From NCBI GenBank assembly GCA_945787585.1, contig CALZIG010000114.1, forward strand, positions 1 through 13,144: DNA of 13,144 nucleotides, in the 5' to 3' direction. Source of the stretch: an uncultured Gammaproteobacteria bacterium. GTDB lineage: Bacteria; Pseudomonadota; Gammaproteobacteria; SZUA-140. A model generated the notes under the pieces. The model ran no database searches. It was not told where the DNA came from and saw nothing but the letters and a program-made list of their open reading frames with translations. Shown piece by piece: positions 1,215-9,396 of this stretch; position 1 is the first letter of the stretch; the number at the start of each line of letters is the position of its first letter. The position numbers and the translations under genes were made by a program.

Positions 1215-2198
1215 TTACGATGGTAGAAACTCAATGGGATATGAAACCGTCACTGTATCAACCTCTTTTTCACCAAAATTAAACTGTTTGATACGTGACA
1301 GAATACGACGTTCAAGCTTTGAATTATTGAGTTCACTAGACACAATTTTTACATCGACAACTTCACCAGAAGGCGCAATCACGATTTCCAGCACGATCAG
1401 TCCTTTCAAGCCGGGATCTGTACGACGTTCGCGATTGTAAATCGAAAAGAGCTTACTCTTGTTTCGATCAAAGACCATCGTGATCTCTTCTTGACTACGC
1501 ATGTTTATCTTAGCCTTGAGAATATCTGCCTGCTCAATTTCAAGCGTTGATTCAACCTCGGTATGCTGCAAGGCGGCCAGTTCTGTTTGCGTAAGCCCAA
1601 CATCACTAGAAAAATCTTTTTCGTTCACTCCGCCACTACTCTGGCTAACCTTTGACGTCAACAACGACTTACTCACCGTTGCCACTTTATTATGAGAACC
1701 TGCTGTCAGTTTTTTTCTCGATTTTGTGGTCAGCACTGTTTTAATATCAGACGTATCCATCAAGTCTTCGAGGCCTTTGCTTAACTCCAGCAAACCACTC
1801 TTCTGCGCCTTTTCACGCGCTGCCTTTTGCTTATCAGTCAGTGGCTTTTTCTTTTCCTGCTGTTTTTTAACCAGCTTCTTTTTCAGGCTCTCTTTGGGCT
1901 TTTCAACCTTTTTTTCAACCTTGGGCTTAGGTTTTGGTTTAGGCTTGGGCTTGGGTTTAGGCTTGGGTTTTGGTAACTCTATTTTCTTTGGCTTGGGCAC
2001 CTGTCCAACAAACTTTGCTATTCGATCGGGTATGACGTGCGCCTTGCGTGCCTCTTTTGGCACTTCAATCCCCTGAATATAAAACACAATGCCGAACAGT
2101 AATGCCAGAAGTACAACGGCAATGATTTTAAATTTACGATCATCATTACGACTAGTGGTGCCGGCAAGCGCAAGATCTTTATAGGCAATAGCTGTCAT
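1215..2198 (-). CDS. TonB-like energy transducer with AgmX/PglI-type C-terminal domain
   Basis: This 327-residue protein has a short cytoplasmic N-terminus, a single membrane segment at about 24-42 (IIAVVLLALLFGIVFYI), and a periplasmic Lys-Pro spacer (about 68-94). A long Lys/Ser-rich linker leads to a folded C-terminal domain (about 234-327). That domain follows the AgmX/PglI tail pattern: an N-terminal helix, then LKGLIVLEIVIAPSGEV, VSSELNNSKLERRI, and a closing strand ending YPIEFLPS. The topology is that of TonB/TolA, which carry motor force from ExbB/ExbD or TolQ/TolR across the periplasm. In Myxococcus, proteins with this tail (AgmX/GltJ and PglI/GltG) belong to the gliding apparatus. 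The gene sits 8 bases after the second ExbD gene. The usual TonB-box-binding signature is not evident, so an ordinary siderophore TonB is less likely. Topology is secure; the subfamily was recognised by pattern only. Confidence 0.85.
   Translation of the reverse strand: MTAIAYKDLALAGTTSRNDDRKFKIIAVVLLALLFGIVFYIQGIEVPKEARKAHVIPDRIAKFVGQVPKPKKIELPKPKPKPKPKPKPKPKPKVEKKVEKPKESLKKKLVKKQQEKKKPLTDKQKAAREKAQKSGLLELSKGLEDLMDTSDIKTVLTTKSRKKLTAGSHNKVATVSKSLLTSKVSQSSGGVNEKDFSSDVGLTQTELAALQHTEVESTLEIEQADILKAKINMRSQEEITMVFDRNKSKLFSIYNRERRTDPGLKGLIVLEIVIAPSGEVVDVKIVSSELNNSKLERRILSRIKQFNFGEKEVDTVTVSYPIEFLPS
1920..1973 (-). repeat. Hexanucleotide repeat coding for (Pro-Lys)9
   Basis: Eighteen consecutive codons alternate Pro and Lys (residues 76-93 of the TonB-like protein), giving a degenerate CCn-AAr hexamer repeat. 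Third positions vary along the tract (CCA, CCT and CCC; AAA and AAG). The protein pattern therefore appears to be selected, and the DNA is not a perfect slippage tract. Such Pro-Lys runs form the extended, rigid periplasmic spacer of TonB proteins. Confidence 0.9.
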
Positions 2199-2206
2199 AA
2201 CACGCT

Positions 2207-2707
2207 TTAGCTCTTAGGCCTGGATTTTTGCACGGCGGCAAAAGATATCCTGGTGTAGTCAGCTTCACGGCATGTGCTTAGTATTTTACTGAGCACTTCG
2301 TAGGGTGTTTTTTGGTCCCCTATGATCGTGACATTACGCGCCTTCTTTTCGACCTTCGAAAACTGCGATTTACCTGCTTCAAAATTCAACTCCTCCATTA
2401 ACCCAGGAATCATGGAATCCTCACTCAATGCGACTTCACTAATTGAGGCCACTTTACGCCCTTGTACTAAAATATCTCGCCCTGTGATGGTGATAACTAG
2501 CGTCTCTTTAGGCGCTACTGCTGAAATTGAGGTGGGCAACTTAACCTCTTTACTACTATGCAACTGCTGTACATTGGATGAACTCACTAATAGAAAAAAT
2601 ACCAGTATCGTAAAGATATCCATCAACGAAACAAGATTCAAACCAGGCTGTTTTTTGCGCTTGTGATGACGATCCATTCGTCTACTACGGCGTGATACTT
2701 CTTTCAT
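2207..2707 (-). CDS. ExbD/TolR family motor protein with the conserved membrane Asp (first of pair by coordinate)
   Basis: This 166-residue protein has a very basic N-terminus (residues 1-20) and one membrane helix, about 23-42. The helix contains NLVSLMDIFTILVFFLL, with Asp30 at the position that carries protons in ExbD/TolR. A periplasmic domain of about 120 residues follows, with the usual strand-helix-strand ending (TPYEVLSKILSTC, YTRISFAAV). It should pair with the ExbB homologue to form a proton-driven inner-membrane motor. Its ATG overlaps the stop of the preceding ExbD gene in ATGA (2704-2707), and a GGGGG run 8 bases upstream serves as ribosome binding site. Met11 is a possible alternative start, but the overlap and ribosome site favour the longer form. 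The TonB-like gene begins 8 bases after it. Confidence 0.92.
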   Translation of the reverse strand: MKEVSRRSRRMDRHHKRKKQPGLNLVSLMDIFTILVFFLLVSSSNVQQLHSSKEVKLPTSISAVAPKETLVITITGRDILVQGRKVASISEVALSEDSMIPGLMEELNFEAGKSQFSKVEKKARNVTIIGDQKTPYEVLSKILSTCREADYTRISFAAVQKSRPKS

Positions 2708-3222
2708 TGACTAGCCCCCACATCGATACCAGGTGTTGCCACAGCATCACCAATCGCGATATTGGGGAATAGTTCAACCGTATCAAGTGTAGCCACATTA
2801 ACAACATCAGCACTTCTGACACGATCCATCACCTGAACCAGCGTCTGATACTCAATATTAGGTTCAAGTAGTAATGTAATGTTCTGCTCTTCAGGAAAAC
2901 GACTCTTAATTTCAACCAGTAATTCACTGAACGCGTTCCAGTCTGTATCGTCTTCACTGCGCTCAAAACGCTTAATCACGCCCAGGCGACGATCCTGCAC
3001 ATCAAAACTCTGCTGACGAATCACCAGCTCAAGTTCAAGCTTAACCTTCTCCTCTTTCTGGGTCTGGGCATTTTTTGATGGAAGGTTAAGTTCTATGACT
3101 GTCATCCGCGAAAATACTGCGGTGACCAACAAAAACGGCACCAGAATCACCATCAAATTCATGAATGCGGTGATGTTAAGTTCTGCGGCTTCTTTGGTAT
3201 GGTGTCTACGTCTTGTACGCAT
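2704..3222 (-). CDS. ExbD/TolR family protein with Asn at the proton-relay position
   Basis: This 172-residue protein has the ExbD layout: basic N-terminus (MRTRRRHH), one membrane helix at about 16-38, and a periplasmic domain. The helix reads LNITAFMNLMVILVPFLLVT. Aligned to the ExbD pattern (INVTPFIDVMLVLL), the conserved Asp is replaced by Asn22 (codon AAT at 3159-3157). An Asn cannot be protonated like Asp, so this subunit should not relay protons by itself. It probably forms an asymmetric pair with the Asp-bearing ExbD encoded just downstream, with which it overlaps by four bases. The C-terminal tail (about 150-172) extends beyond the core domain. The gene starts 105 bases after the ExbB gene stops, with only a modest ribosome site (GGA). 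The family call is strong; the effect of the substitution is inferred. Confidence 0.9.
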   Translation of the reverse strand: MRTRRRHHTKEAAELNITAFMNLMVILVPFLLVTAVFSRMTVIELNLPSKNAQTQKEEKVKLELELVIRQQSFDVQDRRLGVIKRFERSEDDTDWNAFSELLVEIKSRFPEEQNITLLLEPNIEYQTLVQVMDRVRSADVVNVATLDTVELFPNIAIGDAVATPGIDVGASQ

Positions 3223-3327
3223 ATTGATTCCACATCTCTGTTCCGATTCTATCTCGGCTTTCTATTCAGTCCTGTCTTTCATTTTGCTGCTAACAAGGCT
3301 GTCTGCTTGTCACGGTTTCGCTATCTA

Positions 3328-3954
3328 TCAATTATGATCCTGCTCACTCACAATATTCAGACACTTGACCGCCACCATCTCCAGCTCATCAACGAGATGC
3401 GCTGTTTTCGTCGCTAGAAAAGAGTGTAAAAACAACATGGGAATCGCTGCCATTAAACCAAATGCGGTGGTATTCATCGCCACTGAAATACTCGCAGAAA
3501 GTAGATCTGCCTTTTCGGCTGGGTCGGCTGCCGCAACCGCAGTGAAAGCCTCGATTAATCCAATAATAGTGCCCAACAGTCCGAGCAAAGTGGCAATATT
3601 TGCGTAGGTTGCCAGATAGTGGGTACGCTGCTCTAGCTGCGGAATGACTTCCATCATGCCTTCTTCCATGGCCGTTTCAAGATCACTACGGCGGCGCGTG
3701 TGTCCCAGCCGAGAAAAACCATAACTTAACATATGCGCCATGGGTGTTTTGTTTTGTGAGGTGATTTTTACCGCCTGGTCTAAATCATTCTTTTTCAATA
3801 ACGGCACAAGGTCAGACCAGATCTTATTTGAATTTCGCTGAGTCGAACTAAGATAAAGGTAACGTTCCAGTGCGATCGCCATACCCAACGCCAGCACGGC
3901 GAGGATAGGATACATAAACGGCCCACCTGTCTGAAAGAAACTTACGACCTCCAT
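3328..3954 (-). CDS. MotA/TolQ/ExbB family proton channel protein
   Basis: This 208-residue protein has the three-helix layout of ExbB/TolQ. Helix 1 (about 12-32) precedes a cytoplasmic loop (about 35-112). Helix 2 (about 115-138) contains LLGLLGTIIGLIEAF, and helix 3 (about 155-180) contains the conserved Thr/Ala region NTTAFGLMAAIP. Length and motifs match ExbB/TolQ and the gliding motor protein AglR. It should form the pentameric ring around the two ExbD-type subunits and convert proton flow into movement. A strong AAGGAG site lies 6 bases before the ATG. This is the best ribosome site in the region, and fits independent initiation after the 320-base gap that precedes it. Which sub-type (ExbB, TolQ or AglR-like) cannot be decided by eye; the neighbours favour AglR-like. 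Confidence 0.93.
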   Translation of the reverse strand: MEVVSFFQTGGPFMYPILAVLALGMAIALERYLYLSSTQRNSNKIWSDLVPLLKKNDLDQAVKITSQNKTPMAHMLSYGFSRLGHTRRRSDLETAMEEGMMEVIPQLEQRTHYLATYANIATLLGLLGTIIGLIEAFTAVAAADPAEKADLLSASISVAMNTTAFGLMAAIPMLFLHSFLATKTAHLVDELEMVAVKCLNIVSEQDHN

Positions 3955-4274
3955 GACTCACTCCTTAATAAAATATGCATAACTGTCCTGAAAATTTACC
4001 GGGTAACAATACCCATGTATTGGTGACTCCACATCATTCAAACCAGTGCTCCGAGATGAGAGCTTGTGATACTAAAACCTCACGTTGGCTGAACATAGTC
4101 TAATCTGAAACGCTTAATCAAGAAGTAGTCACGTCGGCTTACTCCCCATCAATTAAGGTTCTAACGCTCTCATACCTAAATGTCATAATCTATTTTTTAT
4201 ATCGACCATTCACATAGCTCCTGCAATAAAATGCAAAAATAACAATAATTGCTGTTCTATGAACAAAATACACT
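3955..4274 (-). other. 320-base gap between the TPR genes and the motor genes, with a possible internal promoter
   Basis: No convincing gene is present on either strand. On the minus strand, TTGATT (4121-4116) and TATGTT (4097-4092) are 18 bases apart and could be a weak sigma70 promoter for the motor genes. A small perfect hairpin (GGGTA, 4-base loop, TACCC) lies at 4001-4014, too short and without a T run to be a clear terminator. Two tiny frames of 8 and 15 codons occur around 4152-4223, but nothing indicates they are used. The gap splits an otherwise close-packed gene set, which suggests the motor genes may be controlled separately from the TPR genes. Confidence 0.4.
3961..3966 (-). promoter_or_regulatory. 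Strong ribosome binding site of the ExbB-type gene
   Basis: AAGGAG lies 6 bases before the ATG at 3954. It is the closest match to the Shine-Dalgarno consensus in the left half of the window and fixes the start of the motor gene. Confidence 0.75.
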
Positions 4275-4598
4275 CTATTGAGGTACTGCGCCTTCTTTAT
4301 CAATTTCAGGCATTACCGGTTTGATCCGTCTCTCTAACAAGCTATGAAGAATAATATCCTGCTCTTGAACACGATGCTTTGTTACAACTTCCTGCCACGG
4401 TACGATATAAAGAATCTGGGGTAATTCTTTGTTACCCCTGATCTGAATCCCATCAAGATTGATGACATCATTATCCTCAATCACAGCTGTAATCTCTGCT
4501 TTACTGAGTGATGATTTTGACTCTTCTGCATTAAGCGGAAAAATCATCAGTGCCAATAAAATCATAAACACCCAACGAATATGCTCATTAACTATCAT
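4275..4598 (-). CDS. Small secreted protein of unknown family
   Basis: This 107-residue protein has a signal peptide with a hydrophobic core at about 9-22 and probable cleavage after Ala24 (LNA/E). The mature part has about 83 residues and is predicted periplasmic. It holds one compact-looking segment around 48-72 (NLDGIQIRGNKELP followed by QILYIVPWQ) and a charged C-terminal helix. I do not recognise the family. The start overlaps the stop of the TPR lipoprotein gene in ATGA (4595-4598), so it is almost certainly translated by coupling and is a real gene despite its size. Its position between TPR lipoproteins and the motor suggests a small accessory part of the same envelope complex. That is inference from context only. 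Confidence 0.78.
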   Translation of the reverse strand: MIVNEHIRWVFMILLALMIFPLNAEESKSSLSKAEITAVIEDNDVINLDGIQIRGNKELPQILYIVPWQEVVTKHRVQEQDIILHSLLERRIKPVMPEIDKEGAVPQ

Positions 4599-5188
4599 TC
4601 ACTCACCTCAGCCGAATTCAGTTGAGACTCAAGTTCACCAAGCCATGCCAATGTTGCCTTATCTTCATCAACAATCAGTTGAAGATAGCGCCGATAATGA
4701 TGTACTGCCTTTTCAATATCCTGAAAATAGGTATCATATAATAACGCCAGATTATAATGTGTATGCGCATGGTTCTGATCTTTCCCGAGCGCAGCAAGGT
4801 AATGCTTCAAAGCCAGAGGCACGTCACTCTTTTTATGAGCAATCAGCCCTAGTAAGTAATCAGCCACAGCACTCTGCGACTGTAATTCCAGCACTCTTTC
4901 AGCAGACTGCTGCGCACGATCCAACTCGCCACGGCGGAAACTAATCAGGCCTAGATTCACCCACGGCAACGCAGACTGCGGGTTACGTTGAGCTATTCCG
5001 CGCAGCAATTCCTCGGCGACAGACGGTTTATCATTATTAAGCGCGTCAATCACCGCTGCCATATCCGGTTCAGCAATACCAACTGTAGAACTTTCTTGCG
5101 GCGCGCCCTTATCCATTGTATTTTGTGATGTGCCTGCACAGCCTGCCAATATCAGAACAAACATCACCAGTAGAGGTTTATTCCACAT
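4595..5188 (-). CDS. TPR-repeat lipoprotein
   Basis: With the ATG at 5188 this gives 197 residues: a lipoprotein signal (MWNKPLLVMFVLILAGC) with lipobox LAGC and acylated Cys17, then a short linker and about three to four TPR units. The clearest units are PWVNLGLISFRRGELDRAQ, ADYLLGLIAHKKSDVPLAL and THYNLALLYDTYFQDIEKA. TPR arrays are scaffolds for protein contacts; an outer-membrane anchor facing the periplasm is likely. I chose 5188 because AAGGTGG sits 6 bases upstream and the signal peptide then has a normal short n-region. Starts at 5194 and 5215 are also in frame, but they lengthen the n-region and lack a ribosome site as good. It overlaps the large TPR gene by 11 bases and the next small gene by 4. 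A PilF- or NlpI-like role is conceivable, but the neighbours favour a motor-linked complex. Confidence 0.87.
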   Translation of the reverse strand: MWNKPLLVMFVLILAGCAGTSQNTMDKGAPQESSTVGIAEPDMAAVIDALNNDKPSVAEELLRGIAQRNPQSALPWVNLGLISFRRGELDRAQQSAERVLELQSQSAVADYLLGLIAHKKSDVPLALKHYLAALGKDQNHAHTHYNLALLYDTYFQDIEKAVHHYRRYLQLIVDEDKATLAWLGELESQLNSAEVSE

Positions 5189-7979
5189 AGGCATCCACCT
5201 TAACTTCTCTTGCATAACGTGCTGGAAATATTTTCTTTAGCCGCATAAAACTCTTTTTCGACCAGTCATTAAAGACCCCTTGATTAATATGTGCCAGGTT
5301 CGACTCATATATTTCAATCGCCTTCTCTTCAACCGGAAAGGCAAGATCCTCAAGCCCAATATCATACTGTTCCATCTCATCTTCATTAAGCCCTACGGGG
5401 CGCGCTGAACTCAACACGTCCTGACTAAATCCATAGTACATTTCGGCTATTGAAAATAACGATTCCGACATCACTTCTGGACTGTGGTACTCATAGGCAG
5501 AGGTAAATAGTTTACGCGCCCAGTCCATGGCATCTTTTTTCTTCTTCAGGTGAACTTTAAGTGGCTGTCGGATTTTAAGTTGATCAAACGCTGCCTTTTT
5601 TTCACGTCCTAAACGAATCGTTGCCACTGCTGCAATATGATTGGTACGATCACTCTTCGCCGCAGCATTAATTTGGTGGTCTGCTTTACGAATCTTACTT
5701 GCCCAAATATCACCGCGACGACTATCCCCCATTGCATCACTCATGAGCGTAAGTTTGTTTAAAGCCTCCATATATTGCGGAAATGGTTCCTGATGGTTTT
5801 CAACATAATGCTGATAAATTCTAAGCGCGGCAGGCATGTCACTCAAAGATTCATACAATTCTGCCGCTTGCCACAACGCAGACATCTTCACTTCATTATC
5901 CTTCTCAATATCGTAAACTTCTTCGAGTAACTGCGCGGCATTAGCATGCTGTCTGGCATTGATATAGGCTACTGATAATATTTTAGTAACATCATCTCGG
6001 AGCTCATGCTTAGAATATTGACTACGAAAACGGCCACCGTACTTAATCACCTCTAGCCACGACTCACTCGACATTGCCAGTGTAATTGCATCATAAAGCC
6101 CTTTGGGAGCAATCTCAGACTTCCCAGCAAGTGCAGCAATACGCTCGAATTTTTTTTGAGCAGCGACATCATTACCTGCTGCTCGCTCAATTTCAGCTTG
6201 CTTATAAAGGGCTAATGCCAAGCGGTCTTCCAGTTTTTTCTTTCTTGGATCTCCGTCGATTAACGACCGGCTCAAATAGAGAAACATCACTTCAGCCTTA
6301 GCAAACTTTGACAGGTTAAAATAGGACTCTGCTTTGATCTGTCCAACGTCAAAACGAAGATCTCTGCTGTCAACATTATCAAGTAAACTGGCAATATTAA
6401 TTGCTTGTAAATATTGCTCGCCAGTAAATGCCATCTCTGCGGCACGCAAGATGATCCTTGCAGAACGCATATCATTCGGATAAGTCCGCCTAAAGAGCAA
6501 CGCATATTTAATGTATCGAGAGCCCCACGATGCTTTATTTTTTTCGTCTCTCGAATACAGGCGATCAGACAACACTATTGTGGCGTATGCAGCACGTTGA
6601 TCAACAATATCGCCAAGACTATAGGCAACAAGTTCATAATAACCAATCGCCTTATCATAACGCTCTTCCTCAGCGAGCAAATCTGCATAGGCATAATATA
6701 CCCTGTCTTCCATTGCGTTTTCAGTATAGTGAGCCAGGTAACGTTCATACCACTGGCTCGCCAACTCAAATGACTTATCCGTAGAAGTAGACTGGTACTG
6801 ATTATGGTAATAACTAGCGATTGAAAGTATATTGTTACGCAGCAAAGGTTTGATTTCATTCAATACAGAATGCGGCTTTCCTTTCCAATAGCGAGCAGTG
6901 GGATGATAGCGCTGGTAAAAGCTATCTGCTGCCGCATAAAAGTTATCAAAAAATCCACTACGCTCCCACGTAGTCACTACACGAAACTCCATCTGCGGTA
7001 GATAACGCGAGTCAGGGTGGCGAGTGACAAACTGCTTCAATACAGCCACTACGTCTGTATAACGCTTCTGTCCTAAATAAATATCCGCGAGTCCAGCATA
7101 GATATGATAAGCAAAGAGTGATGTTCGTGTATTTCGAAAATAACCTGCCACCGCTTGATGATCTTCGAGGTATGAAAAATTAAGCGCCATCGCATAGAAA
7201 TACGCCCTAAAATGCGCGTCTTTTTCCATCTTCCCGCCACGCTCACTATAACGATATGCAGCCGCCACCATCAAATCATCTACTGCTGCCTGATACGCCT
7301 GTAATTTAAATTTAGCCCATCCTCGCTTAAAATAAGCCTTTTCAAAAAACACTAAATTATCTGGCATATCAATCACGGCACTATAACGTTTTGCCGCATC
7401 TTCATAGTCGCCGACTACAAAAGAATCCTCTGCTATTCGAAACTGCGCCTCTAAATGAAAACGTGAGCCAGGGTAATTTTGGATTATCTGGTTAAGCGCA
7501 TCTATCGATTTTTCATGCCGACCGAGTTGACTTGATATCATCGCCACACGATACAACACTTCATCATTACTACTGCTATCTGGGTGGTCATGGAGTGACA
7601 TCTCCAGTAACTGCAAAGTACGCTCTAACCGAGTTCCTTTTAGCTTTTCTCTTTTCACTTCTATCTGTTCTTCGTTCAGCGGATCGGCGTTAACAGTCGC
7701 TTTTTCAAGTTCAGCTTCCAGTTCCAGATCGGCAAGACGACTAATCGCTAGCGAGCGAAAATAATCACCTTGTTCAACTTGCTGTACATAGGAGGTATAA
7801 GCCTGGTAAATGTCGATCGGACCTTGAGCCTCTGTAGCCTCACTCGTTGACACCGGCAGCTGTTTGACTTTACTTTGCCGCTCGATATCCGACACTGTCA
7901 GTTCACGCTGTTTGAAACTACACCCAAAGAGTAAAGCTAAGCACAGGGACAACATGATGATTTTTGTGGTATCAATCAT
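5178..7979 (-). CDS. Large TPR-repeat lipoprotein (933 residues), candidate outer-membrane scaffold
   Basis: The N-terminus has a hydrophobic stretch ending LALLFGC, so Cys20 is probably lipidated; Phe at lipobox position -2 is less usual, leaving a simple signal anchor possible. The rest consists of TPR/Sel1-like helical repeats. Early units resemble those of BamD and YbgF: around 120-170 (HPDSSSNDEVLYRVAMISSQ), 171-205 (YPGSRFHLEAQFRIAEDSF) and 290-325. More degenerate repeats continue to about 770. The last 120 residues are helical but not obviously TPR. Size and content resemble the large periplasmic TPR proteins of the Myxococcus Glt system (GltD/AgmU type). The ATG at 7979 overlaps the end of the preceding gene by 8 bases; an in-frame GTG at 7982 would add one residue. 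No frameshift or internal stop interrupts the frame. The scaffold role is inferred. Confidence 0.85.
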   Translation of the reverse strand: MIDTTKIIMLSLCLALLFGCSFKQRELTVSDIERQSKVKQLPVSTSEATEAQGPIDIYQAYTSYVQQVEQGDYFRSLAISRLADLELEAELEKATVNADPLNEEQIEVKREKLKGTRLERTLQLLEMSLHDHPDSSSNDEVLYRVAMISSQLGRHEKSIDALNQIIQNYPGSRFHLEAQFRIAEDSFVVGDYEDAAKRYSAVIDMPDNLVFFEKAYFKRGWAKFKLQAYQAAVDDLMVAAAYRYSERGGKMEKDAHFRAYFYAMALNFSYLEDHQAVAGYFRNTRTSLFAYHIYAGLADIYLGQKRYTDVVAVLKQFVTRHPDSRYLPQMEFRVVTTWERSGFFDNFYAAADSFYQRYHPTARYWKGKPHSVLNEIKPLLRNNILSIASYYHNQYQSTSTDKSFELASQWYERYLAHYTENAMEDRVYYAYADLLAEEERYDKAIGYYELVAYSLGDIVDQRAAYATIVLSDRLYSRDEKNKASWGSRYIKYALLFRRTYPNDMRSARIILRAAEMAFTGEQYLQAINIASLLDNVDSRDLRFDVGQIKAESYFNLSKFAKAEVMFLYLSRSLIDGDPRKKKLEDRLALALYKQAEIERAAGNDVAAQKKFERIAALAGKSEIAPKGLYDAITLAMSSESWLEVIKYGGRFRSQYSKHELRDDVTKILSVAYINARQHANAAQLLEEVYDIEKDNEVKMSALWQAAELYESLSDMPAALRIYQHYVENHQEPFPQYMEALNKLTLMSDAMGDSRRGDIWASKIRKADHQINAAAKSDRTNHIAAVATIRLGREKKAAFDQLKIRQPLKVHLKKKKDAMDWARKLFTSAYEYHSPEVMSESLFSIAEMYYGFSQDVLSSARPVGLNEDEMEQYDIGLEDLAFPVEEKAIEIYESNLAHINQGVFNDWSKKSFMRLKKIFPARYAREVKVDAYVE

Positions 7980-9396
7980 CACGCTTTACGTCCGTATCAT
8001 GCATCTGTACCAAACCAAAACGTGCTTGACTCAGGTAGCTTTGCAGGTGCTCCCGTCGCGCTAGCATATAGGCCTTCACCATCGCTTCTACGATGACGGT
8101 ATAGTCCGCATAAAGCGTTCGGATTCGCTGATGAAAATCACGATCCTTTGCAAAATGATCGCTGCGAACAAGAAAAACACCCAGGTTCTTCATATTATCA
8201 AATAGCGAACGTGTCTCTGGAAATTCACGGATCAAATTGATATCACTGGCAAGACCAAAAATTGATTCGCTCTTAAGATCCTTATTAAGAAAATTATCGA
8301 CATTTTTAATCCGATCAACATAATAATCCATCGCCTCACTATAGGCTGTCGATGCAGCCTGAAGACGCCGACTCTTCGCCAAAATATATGCTGATAATAA
8401 ATAAGACTCATCCACCGCCAGATCAGTCGATTGCTTCGATCGCAATATTGATGCGTAGTTAAGCGCTCGAGCATATGACGTCTGCTTGGTCGCTGCATAA
8501 GCAACCCCTAATAACGCACGAGTAAAATAACGGCTCTTTACTGATATCCGTCCAAATGCATCTCGTGCAGCAGGGTATTCTTCATGTTCCAGAAAGTAAT
8601 AACCCGCCATCAATGTTAGATAGTCTCGTATCTCATTGGGCATCAGCAACGCTTCATTCGCCACGTGGGCCTGCAATTGTGTGGCTTGCGCTAAGTCACC
8701 GCCCCGGTTCAACTGCGATATCATCCCGTTCAACGTTGCGTATAGCTGATACTCTGATGCGGGGGTAATTAACTGATAGTGCTCAATTGCTGCGGCATAA
8801 TCCCCTTCTTGCTGTAACGAAATACCATACATAAGATTATAAAAATCCATATGGGCAGCTGAGATTTTTTTCTTCGAAATTTGCTGAAGCGCTATAAGAC
8901 AAAGTTTCCATTCGTTACGTCGAAAATGGAACCTTGCAAACATATAAGCCGTATTAGTGGCCTGAAACTCTAATCCTGTTTTTTTTACATGCTGATAAAG
9001 TTCATTCGCCATCTGCCACTCATTATGATCCAGCATCAACTGGATAAAACTCATAATGGCACCTCGCCTAACTTTCTTCAGTACCAGTTCTTTGTTTTGA
9101 ACAATTTCTGCAATTGCCCTGATCGGTTCATCATTCTCAAGGAATTTACGCACCTTGATTTCGAACTGTATCGGGCCACCCAACGTCTCAAGGCGCATCG
9201 GGCCGCTAACGGTCCCCATGCTGCTTCCTTCTGGGCCGATATAATTTTGATAAAGTTCAGATGAGAGCGCACGATAACGCTGATCAAGTTGCTTGAGCTC
9301 CTCGGCGAGAGGCGGCGATATCTCGGCGCGCGACCACGTTGCAGGCAATAGACATACCAGCAAGAGACAAGTTGTACTCGCTATTTTCGTAATCAT
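7972..9396 (-). CDS. Periplasmic TPR-like helical repeat protein
   Basis: This 474-residue protein has a signal peptide with probable cleavage after Ala24 (SRA/E) and no lipobox, so it is likely soluble in the periplasm. A short N-terminal helix (about 28-52) and a Gly-rich turn (about 54-75) precede degenerate TPR-type helix pairs from about 75 to 370, such as NTAYMFARFHFRRNEWKL, DFYNLMYGISLQQEGDYAA and LLSAYILAKSRRLQAASTA. A helical, probably coiled C-terminus follows (about 380-474). It is the first gene of the envelope set and lies 297 bases from gatB. The two-protein combination with the large TPR lipoprotein recalls GltE/GltD of the Glt apparatus. Its ribosome site is weak. A five-codon frame (9413-9396) ends in TAATG at its start codon and could couple translation. 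The family name is uncertain; export and repeat architecture are clear. Confidence 0.84.
   Translation of the reverse strand: MITKIASTTCLLLVCLLPATWSRAEISPPLAEELKQLDQRYRALSSELYQNYIGPEGSSMGTVSGPMRLETLGGPIQFEIKVRKFLENDEPIRAIAEIVQNKELVLKKVRRGAIMSFIQLMLDHNEWQMANELYQHVKKTGLEFQATNTAYMFARFHFRRNEWKLCLIALQQISKKKISAAHMDFYNLMYGISLQQEGDYAAAIEHYQLITPASEYQLYATLNGMISQLNRGGDLAQATQLQAHVANEALLMPNEIRDYLTLMAGYYFLEHEEYPAARDAFGRISVKSRYFTRALLGVAYAATKQTSYARALNYASILRSKQSTDLAVDESYLLSAYILAKSRRLQAASTAYSEAMDYYVDRIKNVDNFLNKDLKSESIFGLASDINLIREFPETRSLFDNMKNLGVFLVRSDHFAKDRDFHQRIRTLYADYTVIVEAMVKAYMLARREHLQSYLSQARFGLVQMHDTDVKRDD

Follow-up and report, generated by a model that had tools for sequence, protein, structure and literature searches.

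The AglRQS machines of Myxococcus xanthus, AglRQS-Glt for gliding and AglRQS-Nfs for the spore coat, are proton-driven (PMC3169522, PMC3858216; here and below, cited statements refer to the available parts of each source). Luciano et al. (2011) described gltD, gltE, gltG, and gltC together with aglR, aglQ, and aglS in single regions of several gammaproteobacteria, with Teredinibacter and Saccharophagus among the holders; the function of this core complex was unknown in 2011, it was not enough for motility, and it is the presumed origin of the Myxococcus gliding engine (PMC3169522). We found no later paper that gives its function in gammaproteobacteria. Here, we analyzed a stretch of 13,144 nucleotides from an uncultured gammaproteobacterium (contig CALZIG010000114.1, assembly GCA_945787585.1; hereafter the window, meaning the whole stretch). 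Gene calls and family profiles confirmed in it the genes of an eight-gene machine, predicted to be proton-driven and to extend across both membranes, all on the minus strand: P9-P8-P7-P6, for tetratricopeptide repeat (TPR) proteins and a small secreted protein (the TPR block), and then P5-P4-P3-P2, for an ExbB-type protein, two unlike ExbD-type proteins, and a TonB-like transducer (the motor block) (Table 1).

By gene content, the window's operon fits the published gammaproteobacterial core complex: an operon-like region encodes one ExbB-type and two ExbD-type proteins, exported TPR proteins, and a protein that ends in an AgmX/PglI tail. All of the parts listed in a preliminary description of the locus, including the small secreted protein, are present and collinear, and the two or three exported TPR proteins that it had counted, at least one of them a lipoprotein, resolve into one exported protein (P9) and two predicted lipoproteins (P8 and P7). 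Two features, neither of which can be seen in a single window, go beyond the kind as published, namely, a fixed Asn-type ExbD and sister copies that are embedded in type VI secretion system (T6SS) islands; the available text of the core complex paper mentions neither T6SS islands nor an Asn-type ExbD (PMC3169522).

In this machine, the ExbD pair invariably combines an Asn subunit with an Asp subunit at the proton-carrier position. In a locus survey, for which contigs were scanned with ExbB and the best 80 of 277 relatives (L loci) were taken with 10-kb flanks, the residue aligned with E. coli TolR D23 is Asn in the first ExbD (79/79 loci) and Asp in the second (77/77 loci). Asn is also present in 120/120 listed homologues of P4 (the best 120 of 7,999, chosen by likeness to P4 and including the window's own row), and no myxobacterial name occurs among these 120. 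The 5:2 rotary model normally has two identical copies of the inner subunit, each with an acidic residue. Since one ExbD is naturally Asn here, only one of the two half-steps would be proton-powered if the motor is of the 5:2 rotary type, and the invariant Asn/Asp pair offers a natural test of the model. For P5, the equivalents of the channel threonines T148 and T181 of E. coli ExbB are kept in the window and in nine aligned relatives, and the equivalent of Glu176 is Val in the same sequences.

The motor proteins stand apart from the described families. P5 scored 69.2 bits with the TolQ equivalog of NCBIfam (cut-off 221) and 45.8 bits with the ExbB equivalog (cut-off 206.2), and the two ExbD-type proteins scored 37.3 and 29.6 bits with TolR (cut-off 127.3) and 28.7 bits or less with ExbD (cut-off 123.45). 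In a quick tree, in which the branches of the E. coli and own-genome outgroups are very long, P5 was separated from TolQ and ExbB (SH-aLRT 98), including the three further ExbB/TolQ-type proteins that its genome encodes, one of which groups with E. coli TolQ (SH-aLRT 89). We rejected a siderophore ExbBD or Tol system because of this tree and the equivalog scores; a firm grouping with either, which would have spoken against the preliminary description, did not occur. Sequence searches against solved structures (PDB) returned just TPR-type, TolQ, or ExbB relatives, or nothing useful, and a plasmid search returned three records with distant ExbB relatives (identity of 37% or less).

The motor and TPR genes are co-conserved, the lack of which would likewise have spoken against the preliminary description. 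In a class sample of 369 genomes (G labels), the Asn-type ExbD was found at 95 places in 83 genomes and P8 at no fewer than 113 places in at least 88 genomes, where the P8 counts are lower bounds because only two candidates per genome were scored. P8 was present in 83/83 motor genomes and lay within 8 kb of 81 of the 95 motors, always upstream and on the same strand. Four other motors had TssM within 12 kb and P8 8–45 kb away, for three the contig showed TssM within 12 kb but no P8, and seven had neither TssM nor P8; P8 without the motor occurred in 5 genomes.

Gene calling and iterated profiles served to sort the loci of the locus survey, many of them on cut contigs. The TPR block lay, at least in part, on the same strand as the motor in 29/80 loci, and T6SS genes plus a kinase accompanied the motor in 35/80. 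The kinase only was seen in 5 loci, the kinase plus a divergent TPR block in 4, and 7 were undecided, among them L011 and L012, the latter with the tssE-H families downstream of its motor. All gene families are on one strand in 23/80 loci, where they follow the order P9-P8-P7-P6-P5-P4-P3-P2. The 35 loci with the motor behind T6SS genes, as seen with 10-kb flanks, had suggested a second kind of motor without TPR genes (client swapping); this reading was dropped because longer stretches and the class survey located the TPR block at the opposite end of the island. Three copies, L066, L078, and L033, are in metagenome-assembled genomes labelled Nitrospira, Desulfuromonadales, and Bacteroidetes, respectively, by horizontal transfer or misbinning; L033 is on a zero-length branch next to the gammaproteobacterial L045.

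In the closest relatives of the window's clade, the TPR block and the motor block bracket T6SS islands. The order in these islands is P6-P7-P8-P9-tssH-G-F-E-C-C-B-(A), followed divergently by fha-tssJ-K-L-M-tagF-PP2C-kinase-exbB-exbD(N)-exbD(D)-tonB. We read all seven class-sample motors that have TssM no more than 12 kb away (five with the TPR block, one cut, and one exception), three T6SS-linked isolates (3/3 with the block), and G249, which is not an unbiased case because it was picked for having P8 and TssM on one contig. The TPR block was present in 9/11 of these places: G003, G139, G088, G148, G249, G355, Aliikangiella coralliicola M105, Colwellia psychrerythraea GAB14E, and Teredinibacter sp. 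ISS155. P9 comes directly after tssH in seven of these islands, whereas three or four other genes separate the two in G148 and G355. The motor of G249 is cut by the contig end, the stretch read for G139 stopped inside P7, short of the place of P6, and the contig of G190 ends at tssE.

By Pfam and NCBIfam matches, L034 carries TssK, TssL, TssM, TagF, a PP2C phosphatase, and an FGE-domain Ser/Thr kinase upstream of its motor; we read this kinase as PpkA. The other genes of the G003 island matched the family profiles of TagH (FHA), TssJ, TssB, TssC (twice), TssE, TssF, TssG, and TssH; the gene at the tssA place was labelled by its place alone, and the remaining islands were labelled by BLAST against the survey families and G003. 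In the T6SS-linked loci, the kinase gene immediately precedes the motor or, often, is separated from it by one gene. The product of this gene, an 88-residue protein between the kinase and exbB (family F12; L034:9670-9936), has no family match, and its family occurs in 23/80 loci, all with the kinase and 21 with T6SS genes.

In four loci (L028, L032, L037, and L075), the kinase is found with the motor and the TPR block, with no T6SS genes between. TssM lies elsewhere in 3/4 of these genomes, and none was found in that of L028. The TssM region read in the genome of L032 is part of another T6SS; the 35 kb read contain no motor, and the TssM is 36% identical to that of G003. We found no paper on a T6SS link of this machine in a search that went without most subscription journals and is no proof of absence, and the available text of PMC2660368 does not mention TolQ, TonB, MotA, or Exb.

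Trees were built over the same 33 rows for the motor (ExbB, ExbD, and ExbD; 546 columns) and for the TPR block (P8, P7, and P6; 1215 columns), with the root placed by hand on a standalone group; rooting the ExbB tree on TolQ/ExbB outgroups likewise left standalone operons at the base. By inspection rather than by a formal congruence test, the two trees agree in their major groups and differ slightly within them, and with the 83/83 co-occurrence they point to one shared history of the motor and TPR genes. The window's clade is sister to one T6SS-embedded clade, and the union of the two is supported at 100/100 in both trees. The T6SS clade itself has a support of 95/98 in the motor tree, where G249 falls outside it, and of 87/89 in the TPR tree, where it contains G249; the ExbB of G249 is a 139-residue fragment whose place in the motor tree is unreliable, and the TPR tree carried a tool warning of long branches and uneven composition. 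Because the groups match and a single T6SS clade is sister to the window's clade in both trees, both blocks entered the T6SS island together, most simply in a single event. L032 and L075 are beside the T6SS-embedded G139 in both trees (97/95 and 100/100), nested in the T6SS clade, which suggests that their T6SS genes may have been lost while the kinase and the machine were retained.

The transducer P2 scored 71 bits with the myxo_SS_tail model of NCBIfam (AgmX/PglI tail; cut-off 40), and its match to TonB_C (E 1.3e-4) is under the cut-off. The FHA domain of Pfam had no match in P2. The transmembrane segment of the window's P2 contains no His; such a His is described as motor-binding in TonB and TolA (PMC12204202). 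A wider check of the TonB-like proteins scored 10/74 rows as having His, some through a misplaced transmembrane segment in long proteins, and the window's own P2 segment alone is used here.

For the TPR block, the AlphaFold model of P9 is nearly all helical (mean pLDDT 82), and its structure matches in the PDB are mostly TPR superhelices. That of P8 has helical repeats along most of its length (mean pLDDT 84.9, pTM 0.49), and TPR proteins are prominent among its Foldseek matches, with low TM-scores. A closer structural relative of P8 or P9 than generic TPR superhelices could not be named from the structure comparison; a Campylobacter flagellar-motor scaffold is among the matches, at a low TM-score. 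P8 and P7 are predicted lipoproteins. Cys21 of P8 is present in at least 90% of 16 aligned sequences, and the lipobox pattern occurs in 29/33 P8 sequences, one more row being lipobox-like though missed by the pattern and three rows (L053, L054, and L059) having no lipobox. For P7, the pattern occurs in 31/33 sequences, and the remaining two rows have lipobox-like ends that it missed. By size and gene order only, P9 would be GltC-like and P8 GltD-like, and by gene order P7 would be GltE-like.

P6 has no Pfam or NCBIfam match. Its motif (Table 1) occurs in 30/32 sequences, and the family has at least 7,765 relatives at E <= 0.001 in which the core GNxExPxxLYIVPW is near-fixed; among the 120 relatives listed, no function is named and no Pfam domain is given. 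Directly upstream of P9, an extra protein of about 180 residues, exported as judged by eye, is present in L080 (L080:3053-3592) and in 16 other loci of other branches, and it was not seen in the window's group. This protein and P6 are candidates for the additional gene of Luciano et al.

Within the window, overlaps of 4 to 38 bases join P9/P8 (11 bp), P8/P7, P7/P6, and P4/P3. These overlaps within the gene sets and the gap between P6 and P5 divide the operon into its two blocks, and the gap is the same boundary at which the blocks are split apart in the T6SS islands. Promoter-like and terminator-like matches in the scanned region were near the shuffled level (20 versus 17.6 and 10 versus 7.7, respectively), and Rfam and tRNA scans of the window gave no match.

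Table 1. Genes and intergenic gap of the eight-gene machine in the window
Feature	Position	Strand	Basis
P9, exported TPR-solenoid protein, 474 aa	7972..9396	-	signal peptide by eye, predicted fold
P8, large TPR lipoprotein (predicted), 934 aa	5178..7982	-	TPR_6 E 3.5e-16, lipobox LFGC
P7, small TPR lipoprotein (predicted), 206 aa	4595..5215	-	TPR_16 E 2.5e-11, lipobox LAGC
P6, small secreted protein, 107 aa	4275..4598	-	motif G[NS]xExPxxxY[IVLM]VPW
Intergenic gap, 320 bp, boundary of TPR block and motor block	3955..4274	-	gene calls
P5, ExbB/TolQ/AglR-type motor subunit, 208 aa	3328..3954	-	PF01618 E 1.1e-27
P4, ExbD with Asn (N22) at the proton-carrier position	2704..3222	-	PF02472 E 5.9e-18
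P3, ExbD with Asp (D30) at the proton-carrier position	2207..2707	-	PF02472 E 5.1e-17
P2, TonB-like transducer, 327 aa	1215..2198	-	one transmembrane helix, Pro/Lys-rich linker, AgmX/PglI tail

The window contains no T6SS gene: its gene calls place gatC-gatA-gatB before P9 and a gene for a DUF4124 and trypsin-like protease after P2. TssM had no match in the window's genome, which is 86% complete. The protease gene (88-1206) starts 8 bp past P2, and among the 80 loci it was otherwise seen only in L010 (4187-5353). In four relatives of the window (L006, L008, L009, and L058), a gene of the MreB family of L006 lies divergently upstream of gatCAB; MreB has been connected with the Agl motors in Myxococcus (PMC13104615), and this synteny may be incidental.

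Beyond the TonB-like gene, a large open reading frame (ORF) of one family is present in nine loci (L061, L065, L071, L073, L076, L077, L080, L081, and L083), directly in eight of them and past a small ORF in L061. It runs off the end of the stretch in 9/9 loci, with 316 to 2,451 residues visible. Its DUF11 label rests on a Pfam match of the L080 member, to which the other eight loci were joined by BLAST. One gene further past the TonB-like gene, L067 (13999-20609) encodes adhesin-like proteins with Ig/cadherin repeats, and members of the same family lie shortly beyond the TonB-like gene in L069 (13781-20609), the domains having been tested in L067 only. The large ORFs and adhesin-like proteins after some TonB-like genes and the T6SS islands elsewhere suggest that the machine serves different outer-envelope clients in different lineages. 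The window's own copy shows neither a surface-protein client nor a T6SS.

These results make it probable that the window encodes a standalone Agl/Glt-type core, in which a proton-driven transducer exerts force on an outer-membrane TPR scaffold. We infer the assembly, the force path, and the role of the machine as follows. P5 would assemble with the unlike ExbDs, P4 and P3, into an inner-membrane proton motor. P2 would be the strut, whose Pro/Lys-rich linker would cross the periplasm and whose AgmX/PglI tail would hand force to the scaffold. The scaffold would consist of the TPR lipoproteins P8 and P7, the periplasmic TPR protein P9, and the secreted P6, with P6 as a small conserved ligand. The work done would be to move, hold, or tension the scaffold and any cargo against the cell wall. 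The machine may be a general envelope drive with a lineage-specific client, a surface protein in some standalone loci and the T6SS in the sister clade. For the T6SS, its part might be placement or a PpkA-type trigger; both weapon positioning and a kinase trigger are possible because the kinase lies just before the motor in the T6SS islands.

A wider reading is possible but more tentative, and we would hold it with somewhat less than even confidence: a portable single-acid envelope drive, with one Asp and one fixed Asn, would have been captured whole by a T6SS lineage, its two blocks coming to lie at the outer ends of the island, and would serve there, together with the PpkA-type kinase, in placing, anchoring, or triggering the weapon, and the window would carry its free-standing sister. 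The position in the T6SS islands of named isolates (GAB14E, M105, and ISS155) turns "function unknown" into a testable question, and the location of the closest relatives at both ends of T6SS clusters is the first testable lead on the role of the machine. If the two are coupled, this would be a secretion system with a dedicated proton-driven envelope machine, which is described in none of the papers found.

Several observations weigh against these readings. G370 has T6SS genes and the motor, yet the 40 kb read there contain neither tssE-H nor a TPR block. L011 has a motor quartet basal to the T6SS clade and no T6SS or TPR genes within 10 kb on each side. For 28 of the 113 P8 places, no motor (Asn-type ExbD) lies within 45 kb; at least one of them, G355:C35, is cut by the contig end where the motor would lie, and others are perhaps real TPR blocks without a motor or with a divergent one. 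Across the 369 genomes, motor presence shows no association with TssM (19 genomes have both, 18.0 expected), and no giant surface protein adjoins the window's copy. In addition, P2 scored 36.7 bits with the GltG model of NCBIfam (cut-off 650), over its C-terminal part only, and 42 bits with that of GltJ (cut-off 450), likewise over the C-terminal part, and P7 scored 34 bits with GltE (cut-off 225) and is not a confirmed GltE. The claim of a gammaproteobacterial Agl/Glt core made in the preliminary description is partly supported: it holds by gene content, and the GltG, GltJ, and GltE scores do not bear it out. The T6SS as a general partner of the machine is ruled out by the chance-level co-occurrence of motor and TssM, TssM being within 12 kb of only 7/95 motors.

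The kinase also bears on another explanation, an envelope-state sensor, in which the motor would keep the scaffold under tension and a change of load would be signalled inward, via a PpkA-like kinase where one is present. Both the place of the kinase just upstream of the motor in the T6SS-linked loci and its persistence with the motor and the TPR block in the four loci without intervening T6SS genes are consistent with this, and the PpkA of Pseudomonas is fed by the envelope-sensing TagQRST unit. However, no kinase gene adjoins the window's copy and gene adjacency is no proof of signalling, and we consider a sensor unlikely.

A Tol-Pal-like stabilizer, whose motor would draw outer-membrane lipoproteins inward at growth or division sites, is still less probable. 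Among the equivalogs, the ExbDs score highest with TolR, though far under the cut-off, and P8 has YbgF-like TPR stretches (60 bits, cut-off 90). Conversely, P5 is separate from TolQ, E. coli TolQ is instead joined by another ExbB/TolQ-type protein of the genome, neither TolB nor Pal was recognized in the operon (gene calls, Pfam, NCBIfam), and the core is present in only 83/369 genomes, whereas Tol-Pal is near-universal.

Import of the TonB type, in which the motor would energize outer-membrane receptors with the TPR proteins as accessories, finds some basis in the TonB-like layout of P2 and its sub-threshold TonB_C match, and Vibrio TonB2 systems with an extra TPR protein exist. It is nevertheless very unlikely, given that no TonB-dependent receptor gene was recognized in the window (gene calls, family profiles), that the four TPR and secreted-protein genes are inherited together with the motor, that the genome has three other ExbB/TolQ-type proteins, and that the P2 transmembrane segment has no His, unlike those of TonB and TolA (PMC12204202). 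A gliding machine is the least credible explanation and highly improbable, since the core, although homologous to the Myxococcus machine as published, is not enough for motility (PMC3169522), and no outer-membrane barrel, FHA-containing GltG, or other Group A glt gene was recognized in the window, in keeping with the caution of the preliminary description that gliding was not implied.

Compared with known systems, the standalone core of the window shares its motor superfamily with TonB-ExbBD and Tol-Pal and a TonB-like layout in P2, and it differs from both in its separate ExbB branch, its unlike ExbDs, the missing His in the P2 transmembrane segment, and its block of TPR lipoproteins. Its sister clade lies inside T6SS islands with PpkA/PppA/TagF/Fha regulation, whereas the window is free of T6SS genes. 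The AglRQS-Glt and AglRQS-Nfs machines of M. xanthus, likened here by description, have the same ExbB/TolQ-type protein with two ExbD/TolR-type proteins, the AgmX/PglI tail, and TPR proteins. Asn, which P4 carries naturally, halts the Myxococcus motor when it is introduced into AglQ. A review attributes a transmembrane aspartate to AglQ and AglS alike (PMC9389320), in contrast to Asn22 of P4. M. xanthus GltG has an N-terminal FHA domain (PMC3169522, Table 1), whereas P2 has no FHA match, and none of the Group A genes gltA, B, F, H, I, J, and K was recognized among the window genes. The likeness is closest to the gammaproteobacterial core complex, which likewise clusters the motor trio, a GltG-like protein with a TonB tail, and exported TPR proteins with an extra gene that has no myxobacterial homologue (PMC3169522).

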